From assembly GCA_018660685.1 (NCBI GenBank), contig JABJJW010000017.1, forward strand, positions 1 through 64,000: DNA of 64,000 nt. Direction: 5' to 3'. Positions 35,312 through 39,090 of the stretch are shown here, piece after piece. This stretch comes from Flavobacteriales bacterium (GTDB lineage: Bacteria; Bacteroidota; Bacteroidia; Flavobacteriales_G; Salibacteraceae). The position numbers and the translations under genes are program-made. Position 1 is the stretch's first letter. Each line of letters begins with the position of its first letter. The notes under the pieces are model-generated. The model was not told where the DNA came from, made no database searches, and saw only the letters and a program-made list of their open reading frames with translations.

Positions 35312-35386
35312 GGGAGTTTAGCTCAGTTGGTTCAGAGCACCTCGTTTACACCGAGGGGGTCGGGGGTTCGAATCCCTCAACTCCCA
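35312..35386 (+). tRNA. tRNA-Val (anticodon UAC)
   Basis: The acceptor arms GGGAGTT and AACTCCC pair fully; D-arm GCTC...GAGC, anticodon arm CCTCG-TTTACAC-CGAGG with anticodon TAC, T-arm GGGGG-TTCGAAT-CCCTC (one G-T pair). The CCA end is not encoded (discriminator A, then CTA). A promoter precedes it and a terminator follows. Confidence 0.95.
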
Positions 35387-35394
35387 CTATAAAG

Positions 35395-35424
35395 AAACCC
35401 GCTCATTTGAGTGGGTTTTATTAT
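35395..35424 (+). terminator. Terminator of tRNA-Val(UAC)
   Basis: An 11-bp stem, AAACCCGCTCA (35395-35405) with TGAGTGGGTTT (35408-35418), with a T-rich tail. Confidence 0.8.
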
Positions 35425-35433
35425 TTTAGCCCT

Positions 35434-35598
35434 ATGTATAAAAGTAATTTTTTATTAATTATTTTAATTGTTCTATTTGGATGCACCAAAGATGAACTTC
35501 AAGATTTAGGAAAACTTTGGATAAGTACAGGTATAATTAACGAAGATGGATTAGAAAAAGAAGCTTATTCAACATGGAAGATTGTTTTAGATAAATAG
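35434..35598 (+). CDS. Tiny AT-rich lipoprotein next to a tRNA
   Basis: A 54-residue product from the ATG at 35434. MYKSNFLLIILIVLFGC is a lysine-bearing lipoprotein signal with lipobox LFGC; the mature part is only about 38 residues (TKDELQDLGKLWISTGIINE ...). Codon use is strikingly A/T rich compared with the antiporter upstream (runs of TTTTTA, ATTATT), suggesting a foreign or decaying origin. It lies between the tRNA terminator and a T-loop/CCACCA-like sequence at about 35608-35636. It may be the start of a longer lost gene or a free small lipoprotein. No family recognised. Confidence 0.5.
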   Translation: MYKSNFLLIILIVLFGCTKDELQDLGKLWISTGIINEDGLEKEAYSTWKIVLDK

Positions 35599-35640
35599 TT
35601 TAAAAAAGTTCGAAACTGGGACCGAGAGGTCCACCAAAAG

Positions 35641-35750
35641 ATCAAAGCCTCTCGCATAGCGAGGGGCTTTTTTATTGTTCAGAGTCAAGCTTGCTTGAAC
35701 GATGAACAAAAGAAAAGCCCTGCATCGCGCCAGCGATGTGAGGCTTTGAT
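35641..35750. repeat. Palindromic double-terminator element, copy 1
   Basis: About 110 bp. Its ends, ATCAAAGCCTC (35641-35651) and GAGGCTTTGAT (35740-35750), are exact inverse copies. The left half is a terminator hairpin for the plus strand (AAAGCCTCTCGC / GCGAGGGGCTTT, then six T). The right half is an equivalent terminator for the minus strand (CATCGC / GCGATG core, T-run read on the minus strand). GTTC/GAAC pairs lie inside both T-runs, and the centre has TCAAGC-TT-GCTTGA. Folded whole, it would be a long cruciform. A second copy of the same design lies at 38861-38973. Confidence 0.75.
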
Positions 35751-35859
35751 TCCATCTTCGGCGGGCGAGGGATCACGATCGAACGAAGTGAGGGACTAAT
35801 CCCGTCCAATTAGAGGACTAGATAATTGAGCGATCAGAAATTCCGGTGACTCCAGCCCC
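35751..35859. other. Noncoding tail of palindromic element 1
   Basis: This stretch holds short imperfect repeats such as GATCACGATCGAACGAAG and GGGACTAATCCCGTCC. Its counterpart after copy 2 (38974-39030) is laid out the same way (TTCTCGGGACGCC, hairpin, AGTAATCCAG). No gene seen. Confidence 0.4.
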
Positions 35860-37077
35860 TTATTTTTTAACCCATTTCAATGTCCACTTCTCTTCTCCTC
35901 GTGGAAAATAGAAGAAAAATGTTCCAGATGGAAGATAGCTGACGTCATATCGAGTCCTCTTCTGGGTGATTTGGAAAACATCCAAAACACGACTGTTTGG
36001 ATCTATGAGCTTCACCAACACTTCGTCATTCTCTTGGTCCAAAACATCAATGGTTACAAAGTCGTCTGCTGGGTTTGGGGAGATTCTAACCTCAGGTTGA
36101 TGTTCCGAATCGTCGATTCCAAGAAATCCCGAAATGTCAACCTCCACCACTTCAGTTGCAACCGATACACCTGTGTTGAGATTTGAGTACACCACGCTAA
36201 TTTCAGATTCAAACTCCTCCGATGCTTGGCATAGTACTCCGAAGCGCTCGCCTGGATAAACTACGACTGAGTCAGTTTCGATCTCGGTCGAGAGAGGCCT
36301 TCCATCTGAAGAAACAATTCGGGCGTTCAACCCAGAAGGAAGGACTACTATGTTCTTATAGTATCCGATGTTGGCAAGTCTAACGTAGATGTTTTCATCA
36401 ACTTGACCAGTTACAATCACTGAATCAATAAGTTGAGATTGTCCTAGTCCATTGACTAAAAAATGCTGTGGATCGTAGATCGGAATCTTAACATGATGCA
36501 TTGATGAAGTGGTGTCATACTCATGCAGAAGCACGGTGTCATTATGCCAAACCGTGTCGATTTCAGACATGAACAATCGATGATCTCGATGGATTTCGTA
36601 TCCACCTTCCCAACTGTAATTTTCGCCTGATGGGGGATGAATAACAATCAATCCATACATGCCCGCCTGAACATGGATAGAAGAAACTACATGACAATGA
36701 TAGAGGTAGGTTCCGGCAGCAGGAGCTCTAAATCGGTAGAACCCGTGCTCCATATGATGAACTTCAAACGAGAGATGGGGAACCCCATCATTTTCTTGAT
36801 TTACATCCAAACCGTGAAGGTGTATGGTGTGTGGCGCGCCTTGGGATATATTCCAGAAATCGATGATGACAGAATCGCCTTCGGTGAATTCCAACGTCGG
36901 TCCAGGCACATCGGGATACTGCGATAAATTATCAGCAAAACCAAAAACGCGAACGTTGTTTCCATCTGACAAGGTCTTCCACCCAACATTTCTACCTATT
37001 ATCTGTCTTACTTGCTGTGAGTATACATCAAGGCTGAGAATAAGAAAGCAAGCGATATGAATGGTGAGCAGCTTCAT
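35860..37077 (-). CDS. Cupredoxin/multicopper-oxidase-like protein with T9SS domain
   Basis: A 405-residue exported protein (HIACFLILSLDVYSQ signal peptide). Residues ~60-145 are a Cu-oxidase type 3 domain: HTIHLHGLD (H83, H86, H88), GVPHLS, and YLYHCHVVSSIHVQAGMYG, which supplies H127-C128-H129, H135 and M140, the ligand order of a type 1 copper site next to a type 2/3 site. Residues ~205-315 look like a second cupredoxin lacking such ligands. The last ~75 residues are a T9SS type A sorting domain (VRISPNPADDFVTIDVLDQ ... LPSGTFFFYFP). Its ATG overlaps the stop of the upstream gene by four bases. Confidence 0.8.
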   Translation of the reverse strand: MKLLTIHIACFLILSLDVYSQQVRQIIGRNVGWKTLSDGNNVRVFGFADNLSQYPDVPGPTLEFTEGDSVIIDFWNISQGAPHTIHLHGLDVNQENDGVPHLSFEVHHMEHGFYRFRAPAAGTYLYHCHVVSSIHVQAGMYGLIVIHPPSGENYSWEGGYEIHRDHRLFMSEIDTVWHNDTVLLHEYDTTSSMHHVKIPIYDPQHFLVNGLGQSQLIDSVIVTGQVDENIYVRLANIGYYKNIVVLPSGLNARIVSSDGRPLSTEIETDSVVVYPGERFGVLCQASEEFESEISVVYSNLNTGVSVATEVVEVDISGFLGIDDSEHQPEVRISPNPADDFVTIDVLDQENDEVLVKLIDPNSRVLDVFQITQKRTRYDVSYLPSGTFFFYFPRGEEKWTLKWVKK

Positions 37078-37925
37078 TGAATCAGGAGCGTCAGGAACAT
37101 TCCATTTGGGTAGATTCCTCCTGCTGAGACAGCGACAAGGTTGTGATCATGCACCGGGTATTCACCGACTTGATGCGGCACTAATTGGAGCAAGAGCGTC
37201 TCAAGTGGCTGAATTGGAAAGGTGTCTTTCATCCGGCCAACCCATTTCGTGTCAAAACTAGATTTCAAGATCTCACAGTGATAGCCATGGAAGTGGATTG
37301 AATGATCCGAATTGCCCGTATTGCTTATGGCAATATGGATGGTATCCCCGACCGATCCTTCAACTCTCGCGGTTGCATCTTGAGTAATGTCAGGATGACT
37401 CCTTCCGTTTATTAAAAAATAATCTGGGTAGTAAGTCGTCCAATCAACAGGAAGACCTTGAGCTAAGTCCTCAATCCAGTCGCTTTGTAGCTCCTTGATA
37501 TTCCAATAAAACGCTGTCCGATTGGCTTTGGCCACGTGAATCATTCCTCCAAGTCCAAGTCCGCGAGAATTAGAGCTACTCAATGGGTCGTGGTAGACAA
37601 AAACATTTTCATCTGAAAAGGAATACGAAGTATACGCGGTGTCTCCTGGCGCTATACTTGAAACGCCACCCTTTCCTTTTACCTCAAAACCATGCGCGAC
37701 CGAATCGTTGTTTACAACTGTCAATTGTAAGCTATCCGATTCTAAAAGCTTGATGACGGTGTTTTGTGAGCTAAAAGCCGGGCTCGAATTAAATGCCAAA
37801 AATGTCCACTGATTCGAGTCAATCGTGGTATAGGTGCCTCGATTAATGAAAATGGTGTCGAGCTCGACGGCTAAACCGCTTGAAGCGAAAAGAATGAATA
37901 TCGAAAATGGAATGACGAACTTCAT
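37074..37925 (-). CDS. Cupredoxin/multicopper-oxidase-like partner protein
   Basis: A 283-residue exported protein (MKFVIPFSIFILFASSGLAV). It has two cupredoxin-like halves. The first (to ~130) has GGMIH and YHDPL but no cysteine ligand. The second carries HSIHFHGYHCEI (H208, H211, H213) and PVHDHNLVAVSAGGIYPNGM (H259, H261, M276), the framework of a multicopper-oxidase C-terminal domain with the central Cys of HCH replaced by Asp. It has no sorting domain. It overlaps the 405-residue cupredoxin gene by ATGA, so the two are made together and may jointly form one copper enzyme or a binding pair. Activity alone is doubtful. Confidence 0.75.
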   Translation of the reverse strand: MKFVIPFSIFILFASSGLAVELDTIFINRGTYTTIDSNQWTFLAFNSSPAFSSQNTVIKLLESDSLQLTVVNNDSVAHGFEVKGKGGVSSIAPGDTAYTSYSFSDENVFVYHDPLSSSNSRGLGLGGMIHVAKANRTAFYWNIKELQSDWIEDLAQGLPVDWTTYYPDYFLINGRSHPDITQDATARVEGSVGDTIHIAISNTGNSDHSIHFHGYHCEILKSSFDTKWVGRMKDTFPIQPLETLLLQLVPHQVGEYPVHDHNLVAVSAGGIYPNGMFLTLLIQ

Positions 37926-37936
37926 GTTCGCCCTTT

Positions 37937-38635
37937 CTACAATTTGATAAATGACCGTTGGATGGTTCCAGCTTCAGACTCGGTTCGAATAAAATACAAG
38001 CCCGAGTTTAGATTTGAAACATTCATATCGACCTTGTCAACTTTGCGGTATACGTCATTTCTGATAAGAGTTCCGGCCATATCATATATGCTTATACGAT
38101 TTATTCCCGAAGCTCCTACGGTCACAATGTTGTCGGACGGATTTGGGAAAATCGCCAGATGGTTAGACTCCTTTGAAGCAATGCCAGTGGATGAGGATGT
38201 GTCTTCGAATGAGATATAGCTGAATGAAATAGTGTCACCACGATTCAAATCTGTGATGTCGTAGACATACAATTGGACGGTTGCAGTGTCTGGTGCGCTA
38301 CCAGCGCTGAGGGTCAATTTAAAGAAGCCTTGAATCCCAGAATCTGCATCGGCAACCGTAATAGTATTCATGACGCCCGAGTCAGGTATCCCAGCAAAGC
38401 AGTTAGGCCAATCGCATAATGAAGTGAACCAACTCTCAGGAATGGAATTACTTACAAGCAACCATCCGTAAGTTATATCAGTTGTGTCTTCGTTTCCAAT
38501 GTAAATATCCAAGGAGCTTCCAGCTCCTTCCATGATCGTATCAGCAACATCTGCTGATGGAGAGTATGTGAAGCTTTGAGCAATGCTCAAAGTTGAGATA
38601 CTGAGGCCGAGAACTAGTAAGTAGAGAGATTTCAT
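37937..38635 (-). CDS. T9SS type A sorting-domain protein, paralogue of 8174-8959
   Basis: A 232-residue secreted protein, start ATG at 38635 (MKSLYLLVLGLSISTLSIAQ). The N-terminal beta domain has SWFTSLCDWPNCFAG, corresponding to NWEDYICEGVQLCFPS in the other protein, and a similar strand order around it. The sorting domain is HLAIFPNPSDNIVTVGAS ... RISIYDMAGTLIRNDVY ... LNSGLYFIRTES. It is 11 bases upstream of the cupredoxin pair on the same strand and probably in one operon, so it may bind or display those proteins at the surface. Confidence 0.8.
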   Translation of the reverse strand: MKSLYLLVLGLSISTLSIAQSFTYSPSADVADTIMEGAGSSLDIYIGNEDTTDITYGWLLVSNSIPESWFTSLCDWPNCFAGIPDSGVMNTITVADADSGIQGFFKLTLSAGSAPDTATVQLYVYDITDLNRGDTISFSYISFEDTSSSTGIASKESNHLAIFPNPSDNIVTVGASGINRISIYDMAGTLIRNDVYRKVDKVDMNVSNLNSGLYFIRTESEAGTIQRSFIKL

Positions 38636-38779
38636 GGGATTGAATTTGATGCAAAGGTAAATCAGTAAGTAAGACGAGTGTGCACATAAAATGGATTGGT
38701 GTATGGGCAATTTGTTTAACTCCTTCCTTCAGTGCACGATAAATGAGACAGCTTTTTATCATATTCGCAGTTCAATTAA

Positions 38780-38854
38780 GGGCTATTAACTCAGTTGGTT
38801 TAGAGTGTTACCTTGACAGGGTAGAAGTCACTGGTTCGAATCCAGTATAGCCCA
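38780..38854 (+). tRNA. tRNA-Val (anticodon GAC)
   Basis: Acceptor arms GGGCTAT / ATAGCCC pair fully; anticodon arm TTACC-TTGACAG-GGTAG (one T-G pair) with anticodon GAC; T-arm ACTGG-TTCGAAT-CCAGT perfect. CCA is not encoded. The D-arm is ACTC...GAGT. The palindromic element starts seven bases after its end. Confidence 0.95.
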
Positions 38855-38860
38855 CTAGAT

Positions 38861-38973
38861 GATCAAAGCCTTTCGCAATGCGAGAGGCTTTTTTCGTTAC
38901 CGGGCTTGAGCTTGCTCGAAGGCCGAGGAACGAAAAAAAGGCTGAGAAAGCGAAGCTTTCCAAAGGCTTTGAT
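38861..38973. repeat. Palindromic double-terminator element, copy 2
   Basis: About 112 bp. Ends ATCAAAGCCTTT (38862-38873) and AAAGGCTTTGAT (38962-38973) are perfect 12-bp inverse copies. The left half is a plus-strand terminator (GCCTTTCGC / GCGAGAGGC then six T) that should end tRNA-Val(GAC); the right half is the mirror for the minus strand (AACGAAAAAAAGGC... ). CGTT/AACG pairs flank the T-runs and the centre has TTGAGC-TT-GCTCGAA. The ends, length and inner order equal those of copy 1 although the stems differ in sequence, so the structure is conserved more than the bases. Confidence 0.75.
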
Positions 38974-39090
38974 TCCCTTCTCGGGACGCCACTTGCTCAC
39001 GAGCGAACTTCGTGAGCGAGTAATCCAGAACCAGATTGATTGCTGAATATATCACGGCGAAGCTTTCCAAATGCTTTGATTCCTTGTCTC
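38950..39090 (+). repeat. Direct repeat of the element's right end
   Basis: GCGAAGCTTTCCAAAGGCTT... (38950-38982) recurs at 39057-39090 as GCGAAGCTTTCCAAATGCTT..., about 33 bases with few changes. Between them is a hairpin, GCTCACGA (38995-39002) with TCGTGAGC (39010-39017). This indicates a partial duplication of the palindromic element. Confidence 0.65.

Follow-up and report, generated by a model that had tools for sequence, protein, structure and literature searches.

Two palindromes follow tRNA-Val genes in the window, a 64,000-nt stretch of a Flavobacteriales bacterium (GenBank assembly GCA_018660685.1, contig JABJJW010000017.1, positions 1 to 64,000). We found that they are parts of larger units, which almost certainly form a real family of structured repeats at the 3′ ends of tRNA and transfer-messenger RNA (tmRNA) genes. 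The left arm of a unit is the trailer of the tRNA (or tmRNA) gene itself, and the right arm complements that same trailer. Between the arms lie a rho-independent terminator hairpin (hairpin 1), an AT-rich inner stem with a central hairpin, and an inverted terminator-like hairpin (hairpin 2). The right boundary of the unit is an altered copy of the T-arm and 3′ end of its own tRNA. In the genomes read, the units are confined to tRNA and tmRNA ends. With moderate confidence, we read them as repeats linked to tRNA 3′ ends that spread by copying and supply terminators.

Anatomy of the two copies

Genomes are numbered with G, contigs with C and fetched loci with L; G000 is the genome of the window (2.58 Mb). 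Both tRNA-Val genes, tac (35312–35387) and gac (38780–38855), were called on the plus strand by ARAGORN and Rfam. The Rfam scan of the window gave these two tRNAs and no other match.

A first-pass annotation, made from the sequence alone, had described a palindrome of about 110 bp behind each gene. The palindromes are 110 bp (copy 1) and 112 bp (copy 2) long. Copy 1 lies where it had been placed, at 35641–35750, whereas copy 2 starts at 38862, one base later than the 38861 given. The outer arms were described correctly as exact inverse copies, over 11 bp (ATCAAAGCCTC/GAGGCTTTGAT) and 12 bp (ATCAAAGCCTTT/AAAGGCTTTGAT). However, the palindrome is only the left part of a unit of ~160 bases. Another ~50–60 bp lead to a T-arm-like hairpin, the right boundary that had been overlooked.

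When compared with dinucleotide shuffles, the RNA fold of copy 1 had z scores of −8.8 on the plus strand and −7.7 on the minus strand, and that of copy 2 had −3.9 and −3.8; no shuffle was as good. For most copies the lowest-energy fold is a four-way junction formed by the outer stem, hairpin 1, the inner stem and hairpin 2. This fold competes with the hairpin-1 terminator. The 255-base gap ahead of copy 1 contains the terminator of tRNA-Val(tac) and a small open reading frame (ORF).

Pairing of the arms and origin of the right end

Measured from the tRNA 3′ end, the geometry is fixed across units: the trailer arm lies 0–9 nt past the tRNA, the right arm at ~95–120 and the right-end hairpin at ~127–151. 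The arm sequences vary by locus (for example AGCAAAAACTAAAAA, AGATTTTGAAAGCC, CAAATCATCCTC and GAATAAAAAGCT). In an automatic test on 18 units, the longest perfect match of a right arm averaged 9.4 nt with its own trailer and 5.3 nt for the arms of other units. The summed trailer/arm match was 169, compared with a permutation maximum of 138, and 0 of 20,000 permutations were as good. A hand-read table of 24 outer stems had 216 of 240 cells paired, against a maximum of 177 with re-dealt arms; the arms in this table were picked by eye, and the automatic test is the cleaner of the two. In the window, the right arm of copy 2 is complementary to the trailer of tRNA-Val(gac) over 12 nt. The architecture had been said to be kept while the stem sequences change, and the permutation tests bear this out as compensatory change.

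The right-end hairpin agrees with its own tRNA at 10.4 of 17 positions and with other isotypes at 7.4 of 17 (0 of 20,000 permutations as good). In copy 2 it resembles the T-arm CACTGG-TTCGA-ATCCAG (T-stem CACTGG/ATCCAG) of the cognate tRNA-Val(gac). The insert can be flanked by a direct repeat of the tRNA 3′ end, which is an exact 17-nt copy in G005 and is also found at tRNA-Ser(tga) and tRNA-Leu(gag) in G000. In several loci the tRNA 3′ end is repeated on both sides, with varying length and decay.

The attachment (att) sites of integrative elements in tRNA genes also carry a direct repeat of the tRNA 3′ end and leave the tRNA intact. The units have both features, and their repeat runs from the T-loop onward as in classical tRNA att sites. 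Even so, it is very unlikely that the units are remnants of such sites. The insert is always ~150 bp, tiny and structured, keeps a single architecture at a tmRNA and at many tRNA isotypes, and has no coding capacity between the repeats. Its arms pair with each other, and the second T-loop is recurrently altered. The units read neither contain nor adjoin an integrase (no genome-wide integrase search was made), and the integrase or replication-arrest role that had been suggested is without support.

Two inverted hairpins that form one larger palindrome are known from REPINs (doublets of repetitive extragenic palindromes) and bacterial interspersed mosaic elements (BIMEs), which occur with RAYT transposases. 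The units have two inverted hairpins of fitting size in one palindrome, and a reading of them as REPINs mobilized by RAYT was considered. However, PF01797 (Y1_Tnp) had no match in the unit-bearing genomes G000, G003, G018, G019, G022, G024 and G028, and this absence opposes the reading. A few percent of G000 is unsequenced; a RAYT gene there would leave the other genomes unexplained. The units are also found at tRNA or tmRNA genes or their fragments and not dispersed intergenically, and their arms vary by locus. We regard REPINs as a scarcely credible explanation.

Units elsewhere in the genome

The pattern ATCAAAGCC-N-GGCTTTGAT occurred three times in G000, and its reversed control did not occur. 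The architecture is not limited to the two copies first noticed; on contig C5, the third copy stands behind tRNA-Leu(gag). We found 34 tRNA genes in this genome and read the downstream flanks of most. Units stand after Val(gac), Leu(gag), Arg(tcg) (in tandem) and Ser(tga), and copy 1 stands behind Val(tac).

After the palindrome comes a spacer, typically with TTCTCGG or TTCACGG at its end, and then the right-end hairpin. In this hairpin a cognate-like T-stem surrounds ATCAYGAARTA, or an expanded version of it, in place of the T-loop. Several loci continue beyond it with the remainder of the tRNA 3′ end, and even with a second terminator copy. The tRNA-Ser(tga) unit has GGGATCATGGAATAATCCCTCACTCTCCGC followed by a near-copy of that tRNA's terminator, and the tRNA-Leu(gag) unit has ATCCAGTCCTGGGC followed by a related terminator. 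The Tyr, His and one Met tRNA have looser tRNA 3′ fragments behind them, and behind most of the remaining tRNAs read stands an ordinary terminator.

The tandem array behind tRNA-Arg(tcg) is interrupted by a break in the assembly. The end of G000:C12 and the start of G000:C9 (L170, L169) share sequence there.

Distribution among relatives

At least 14 other Bacteroidota genomes have similar units, behind tRNAs for Val, Leu, Arg, Ser and Pro and, in one case, behind a tmRNA. The association with tRNA 3′ ends that had been noticed in the window was upheld, but not its restriction to tRNA-Val. When 42 genomes of the order were searched with the C5 unit as a DNA query that contained no tRNA, the best matches outside its own genome lay directly after Leu(gag), Arg(acg), Val(tac) and Arg(tct). 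Tandem arrays were seen at Arg(tcg) in G000, Arg(acg) in G028, Pro in G086 and Arg(tct) in G008.

The right-end motif GGATCAYGRARTAATCC, again a query without tRNA, gave 13 distinct matches in G000–G008, part of G009 and 394 other genomes of the phylum (the match in the C12/C9 contig overlap was left out). For 12 of these 13, the unit or array that holds the match has an intact tRNA upstream of it on the same strand; the remaining one lies beside tRNA-Arg 3′ fragments. The exact motif was present in 3 of 395 genomes of the phylum sample and is rare outside the order. A related right end stands behind the tmRNA of G008. A looser pattern, GGATCA-N-TAATCC, lacked sufficient specificity.

Within the order, some genomes have a unit at the orthologous tRNA-Val(gac) and others, G020 and G027 of the same genus among them, have none; G025 has a reduced form with a single hairpin there. 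The trailer motif TWRATGAY was found at 15 of the 111 tRNAs read, of Leu, Val and Arg isotypes. By eye, all 15 carry units, and an automatic criterion recognized 9 of them (Fisher p 9e-5); the sample was partly chosen by earlier searches, and these frequencies are not whole-genome estimates. Within the genus, the trailer motif and a common right spacer occur at different isotypes and not at unit-free tRNAs. Because of this sharing across isotypes and the patchy presence at orthologous tRNA-Val, the units seem to spread between tRNA genes, and we consider such spread likely. While they spread, the arms seem to be renewed or kept complementary locally.

Two other origins were rejected. A single exact-sequence element across the order does not account for the units: among the 42 genomes, exact ATCAAAGCC..GGCTTTGAT is confined to G000. 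A longer exact pattern, searched over the genome contigs of ~85,000 species, had four matches, which by their titles belong to other phyla. A viral origin of the right-end motif was rejected as well, since none of 15 viral-contig matches to nearly the same motif lies at a tRNA 3′ end; these matches indicate the background. An assembly artifact is unlikely, with units in many genomes including the single-contig G008.

In some pseudo-tRNAs beside an intact gene, a short palindrome (for example TCCCGATAGCTATTGGGA) stands in place of the D-, anticodon- or T-loop. Such pseudo-tRNAs were seen in L017 (~940–1010), in L190 and L200 (upstream of tRNA-Val(gac)), and in L097, L118 and L103.

Termination

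In both window copies the terminator scan found hairpin 1 to be a good plus-strand terminator, with a 12-bp stem and a T-run, and it would probably stop transcription on that strand. On the minus strand, the simple scan found a terminator in copy 2 only; the stem of copy 1 has internal mismatches. The paired terminators first described, plus-strand on the left and minus-strand on the right, are thus seen by scan on the left in both copies and on the right in copy 2 only. Two-way termination, as proposed from them, has partial support, given the imperfect minus-strand hairpins. Copy 1 has the plus-strand tRNA region on one side and a minus-strand multicopper oxidase gene on the other, and two-way termination would make sense there.

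These terminators, the position of copy 1 and the pairing kept despite changed sequence would also be expected if strong, partly bidirectional terminators were selected at tRNA operon ends. The tRNA-like ends and the likeness among units would then be by-products of tandem duplication, with no spread. We consider this improbable. The trailer motif and right spacer are common to different isotypes and absent at unit-free tRNAs, presence is patchy, and the imperfect hairpins on the minus strand fit poorly. Because those hairpins are weaker and an ORF in the same orientation lies behind the tRNA-Leu unit, we see termination as an inherent feature that renders the unit harmless or useful and that does not by itself explain it. 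Like intrinsic (rho-independent) terminators, the unit places a GC-rich hairpin and a T-run right behind the tRNA. Unlike them, it has an inverted partner, a trailer-complementary right arm and a T-arm copy.

GIY-YIG ORFs near tRNA genes

In relatives, free-standing GIY-YIG ORFs occupy the same niche. Of 71 from the order, 34 have a tRNA or T-loop fragment no more than 350 nt away, and all 28 tRNA neighbors share the strand of the ORF. The tRNA link clusters on the GIY-YIG tree, with 8 changes compared with 23.8 in shuffles; a clade of 25 free-standing proteins has no tRNA-linked member. Tandem arrays of [GIY-YIG ORF + tRNA 3′ fragment + terminator] in several copies were found at tRNA-Asp (G008) and tRNA-Pro (G013). 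In G005 (L089), an ORF and units are joined in one locus. Its order is tRNA-Val(gac), a palindromic unit, the exact 17-nt copy of the tRNA 3′ end, a GIY-YIG ORF (Pfam PF01541, E 1.9e-16), a pseudo-tRNA, a second tRNA-Val(gac) and a second unit.

The tRNA-adjacent ORFs encode ~80–100 aa, occur at many isotypes and are placed between an intact and a partial tRNA. Those in relatives are at L014, L058, L063–L065, L068, L085, L089, L091, L093–L100, L103, L104, L109 and L112–L118. The copy in G000, at tRNA-Pro(tgg) (G000:C4:18319–18510), has an internal stop. In L119 (G032:C35), five tandem GIY-YIG ORFs lie ~400 bp apart, with no tRNA detected in the fetched stretch.

SegB, a GIY-YIG enzyme of phage T6, is tRNA-associated and drives tandem segmental amplification of a tRNA locus, and GIY-YIG genes are associated with tRNA genes of many isotypes (PMC13096335). 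The chromosomal ORFs resemble SegB and free-standing GIY-YIG homing endonucleases in this last respect. SegB is a phage enzyme, however, and the link of the chromosomal ORFs to the units is circumstantial, with one joined locus.

A miniature inverted-repeat transposable element (MITE) that inserts at the tRNA T-loop with a long target duplication, moved in trans for example by a GIY-YIG nuclease, would agree with the direct repeats around the insert, with the right-end motif conserved across families, and with the shared niche and the SegB precedent at tRNA loci. We consider such an element distinctly unlikely. It should have fixed terminal repeats, but the arms are only partly common within the genus and elsewhere follow the local trailer. 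Of the mobile unit first suggested, signs of copying between loci thus remain and fixed ends do not. A GIY-YIG nuclease is not a transposase, some units occur in genomes that lack free-standing GIY-YIG ORFs, and no recent insertion was seen. No transposase was found in the units read; the genome-wide search was aimed at RAYT and GIY-YIG only.

Other features of the window

In the window the two tRNA-Val genes are 3.4 kb apart (35388–38779 between them), compared with 30–160 bp in most relatives read. A 63-aa lipoprotein-like ORF, copy 1 and a gene cassette with multicopper oxidase and type IX secretion system (T9SS) genes lie between them. We rejected this cassette as cargo of the unit: G017, G026 and G034 have orthologous cassettes without a tRNA within the several kb fetched, and only in G028 is the cassette near a unit. 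A T9SS sorting domain is found among the proteins of G000; this domain and the tRNA promoters point to a member of the Bacteroidota.

The tRNA-Val(gac) gene is identical over its 76 bases to the tRNA of G005–G007 (another family), G016 and G017. Those of other members of its own genus are only 86–92% identical, which may reflect horizontal transfer or uneven divergence.

Table 1. Features of the two copies in the window and GIY-YIG arrays in relatives
Feature	Position	Strand	Basis
tRNA-Val(tac), upstream of copy 1	35312..35387	+	ARAGORN, Rfam RF00005
Simple terminator of tRNA-Val(tac) itself	35394..35419	+	Terminator scan
Tentative tRNA-3′-end-like remnant preceding copy 1, GTTCGAAACTGGGACCGAGAGGTCCACCA	35608..35636	+	Direct reading
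Copy 1 palindrome: outer arms, hairpin 1, inner stem with central hairpin, hairpin 2	35641..35750	none	Exact inverted ends; RNA fold a four-way junction
Copy 1 hairpin 1, predicted plus-strand intrinsic terminator, then T-run	35644..35670	+	Terminator scan, 12 pairs
Copy 1 central hairpin, TCAAGCTTGCTTGA	35685..35698	none	Fold
Copy 1 hairpin 2, inverted, imperfect, terminator-like	35714..35747	-	Fold; missed by bulge-free terminator scan
Copy 1 right end, T-arm-like hairpin GAGGG-ATCACGA..ACTA-ATCCCGTC	35767..35807	+	Direct reading; homologous to right ends of other units
tRNA-Val(gac), gene of copy 2	38780..38855	+	ARAGORN, Rfam
Copy 2 palindrome, 6 bases past tRNA-Val(gac)	38862..38973	none	Exact inverted ends, fold
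Copy 2 hairpin 1, predicted plus-strand intrinsic terminator	38865..38891	+	Terminator scan, 12 pairs
Copy 2 hairpin 2, minus-strand terminator-like	38945..38961	-	Terminator scan, 7 pairs
Copy 2 right end, T-arm-like hairpin CACTTG-CTCACGA..CGAGTA-ATCCAG	38990..39028	+	Direct reading; cognate-match test
Remnant of an additional right arm, GCGAAGCTTTCCAAATGCTTTGATTCC	39057..39083	+	Direct repeat D5, 96% identity to 38950-38976
GIY-YIG tandem arrays, tRNA-Asp (G008)	L094 1330-2700; L099 1450-2950
GIY-YIG tandem arrays, tRNA-Pro (G013)	L103

Discussion

Inverted duplication of a tRNA 3′ end and its terminator, followed by gene conversion, fits the anatomy best. A unit would arise by local duplication with inversion, for which template switching or break repair may be the source. 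It could then be copied to other tRNA genes by gene conversion or by insertion at the T-loop or 3′ end. Such units would be tolerated, and perhaps kept, as the tRNA is left intact and termination is supplied. Breaks made by a tRNA-targeting GIY-YIG nuclease might start the duplication or copying events. That these nucleases are the engine of unit formation and spread is a tentative suggestion. SegB would be a precedent for such an engine and not proof of it, because G003 and G025 carry units and have no free-standing GIY-YIG ORF.

Several observations weigh against this account. The two genomes just named, and the lack of an adjoining GIY-YIG ORF at most palindromic units, those of the window included, count against the nuclease part. 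We saw no recent jump, that is, near-identical units at two tRNAs of one genome, and the likeness of units within a genome could reflect old gene conversion. The weaker minus-strand hairpins also speak against it where the supply of terminators is concerned. A further reading, for which we see a rather small chance, is a new class of miniature element that targets the T-loop common to tRNA and tmRNA genes without damage to the 3′ end of the gene, has its arm folded on the local trailer, and is moved in trans by tRNA-linked GIY-YIG nucleases.

The tandem repeats of E. coli tyrT (rtT RNA) lie directly downstream of a tRNA gene, and each contains a piece of the tRNA 3′ end. The units described here can likewise be tandem, downstream of a tRNA and inclusive of its 3′ end. 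They differ from the tyrT repeats in folding onto the trailer, in their two terminator-like hairpins and broken T-loop, and in their presence at many isotypes and a tmRNA; the Rfam scan of the window gave no homology to rtT RNA. We found no earlier description of the unit in an open-licence library, where SegB was the nearest case; most subscription journals lie outside it, and the novelty of the family is provisional.

tRNA and tmRNA genes are favored landing sites for mobile DNA, and small non-coding elements restricted to their 3′ ends are little known. The units repeat a single architecture in different isotypes and families: their arms match the trailer of each gene, and a broken T-arm copy forms the distal end. 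The units bear on annotation, where partial tRNA copies, assembly breaks in arrays (as at contigs C12/C9) and small GIY-YIG ORFs running into tRNA remnants are met. They make the origin of inverted and tandem duplications at tRNA genes testable, and also whether chromosomal tRNA loci are shaped by free-standing GIY-YIG nucleases in the way that phage loci are by SegB. If the units did prove to be a miniature element propagated by GIY-YIG nucleases, they would represent a chromosomal, tRNA-gene-specific selfish system in Bacteroidota.

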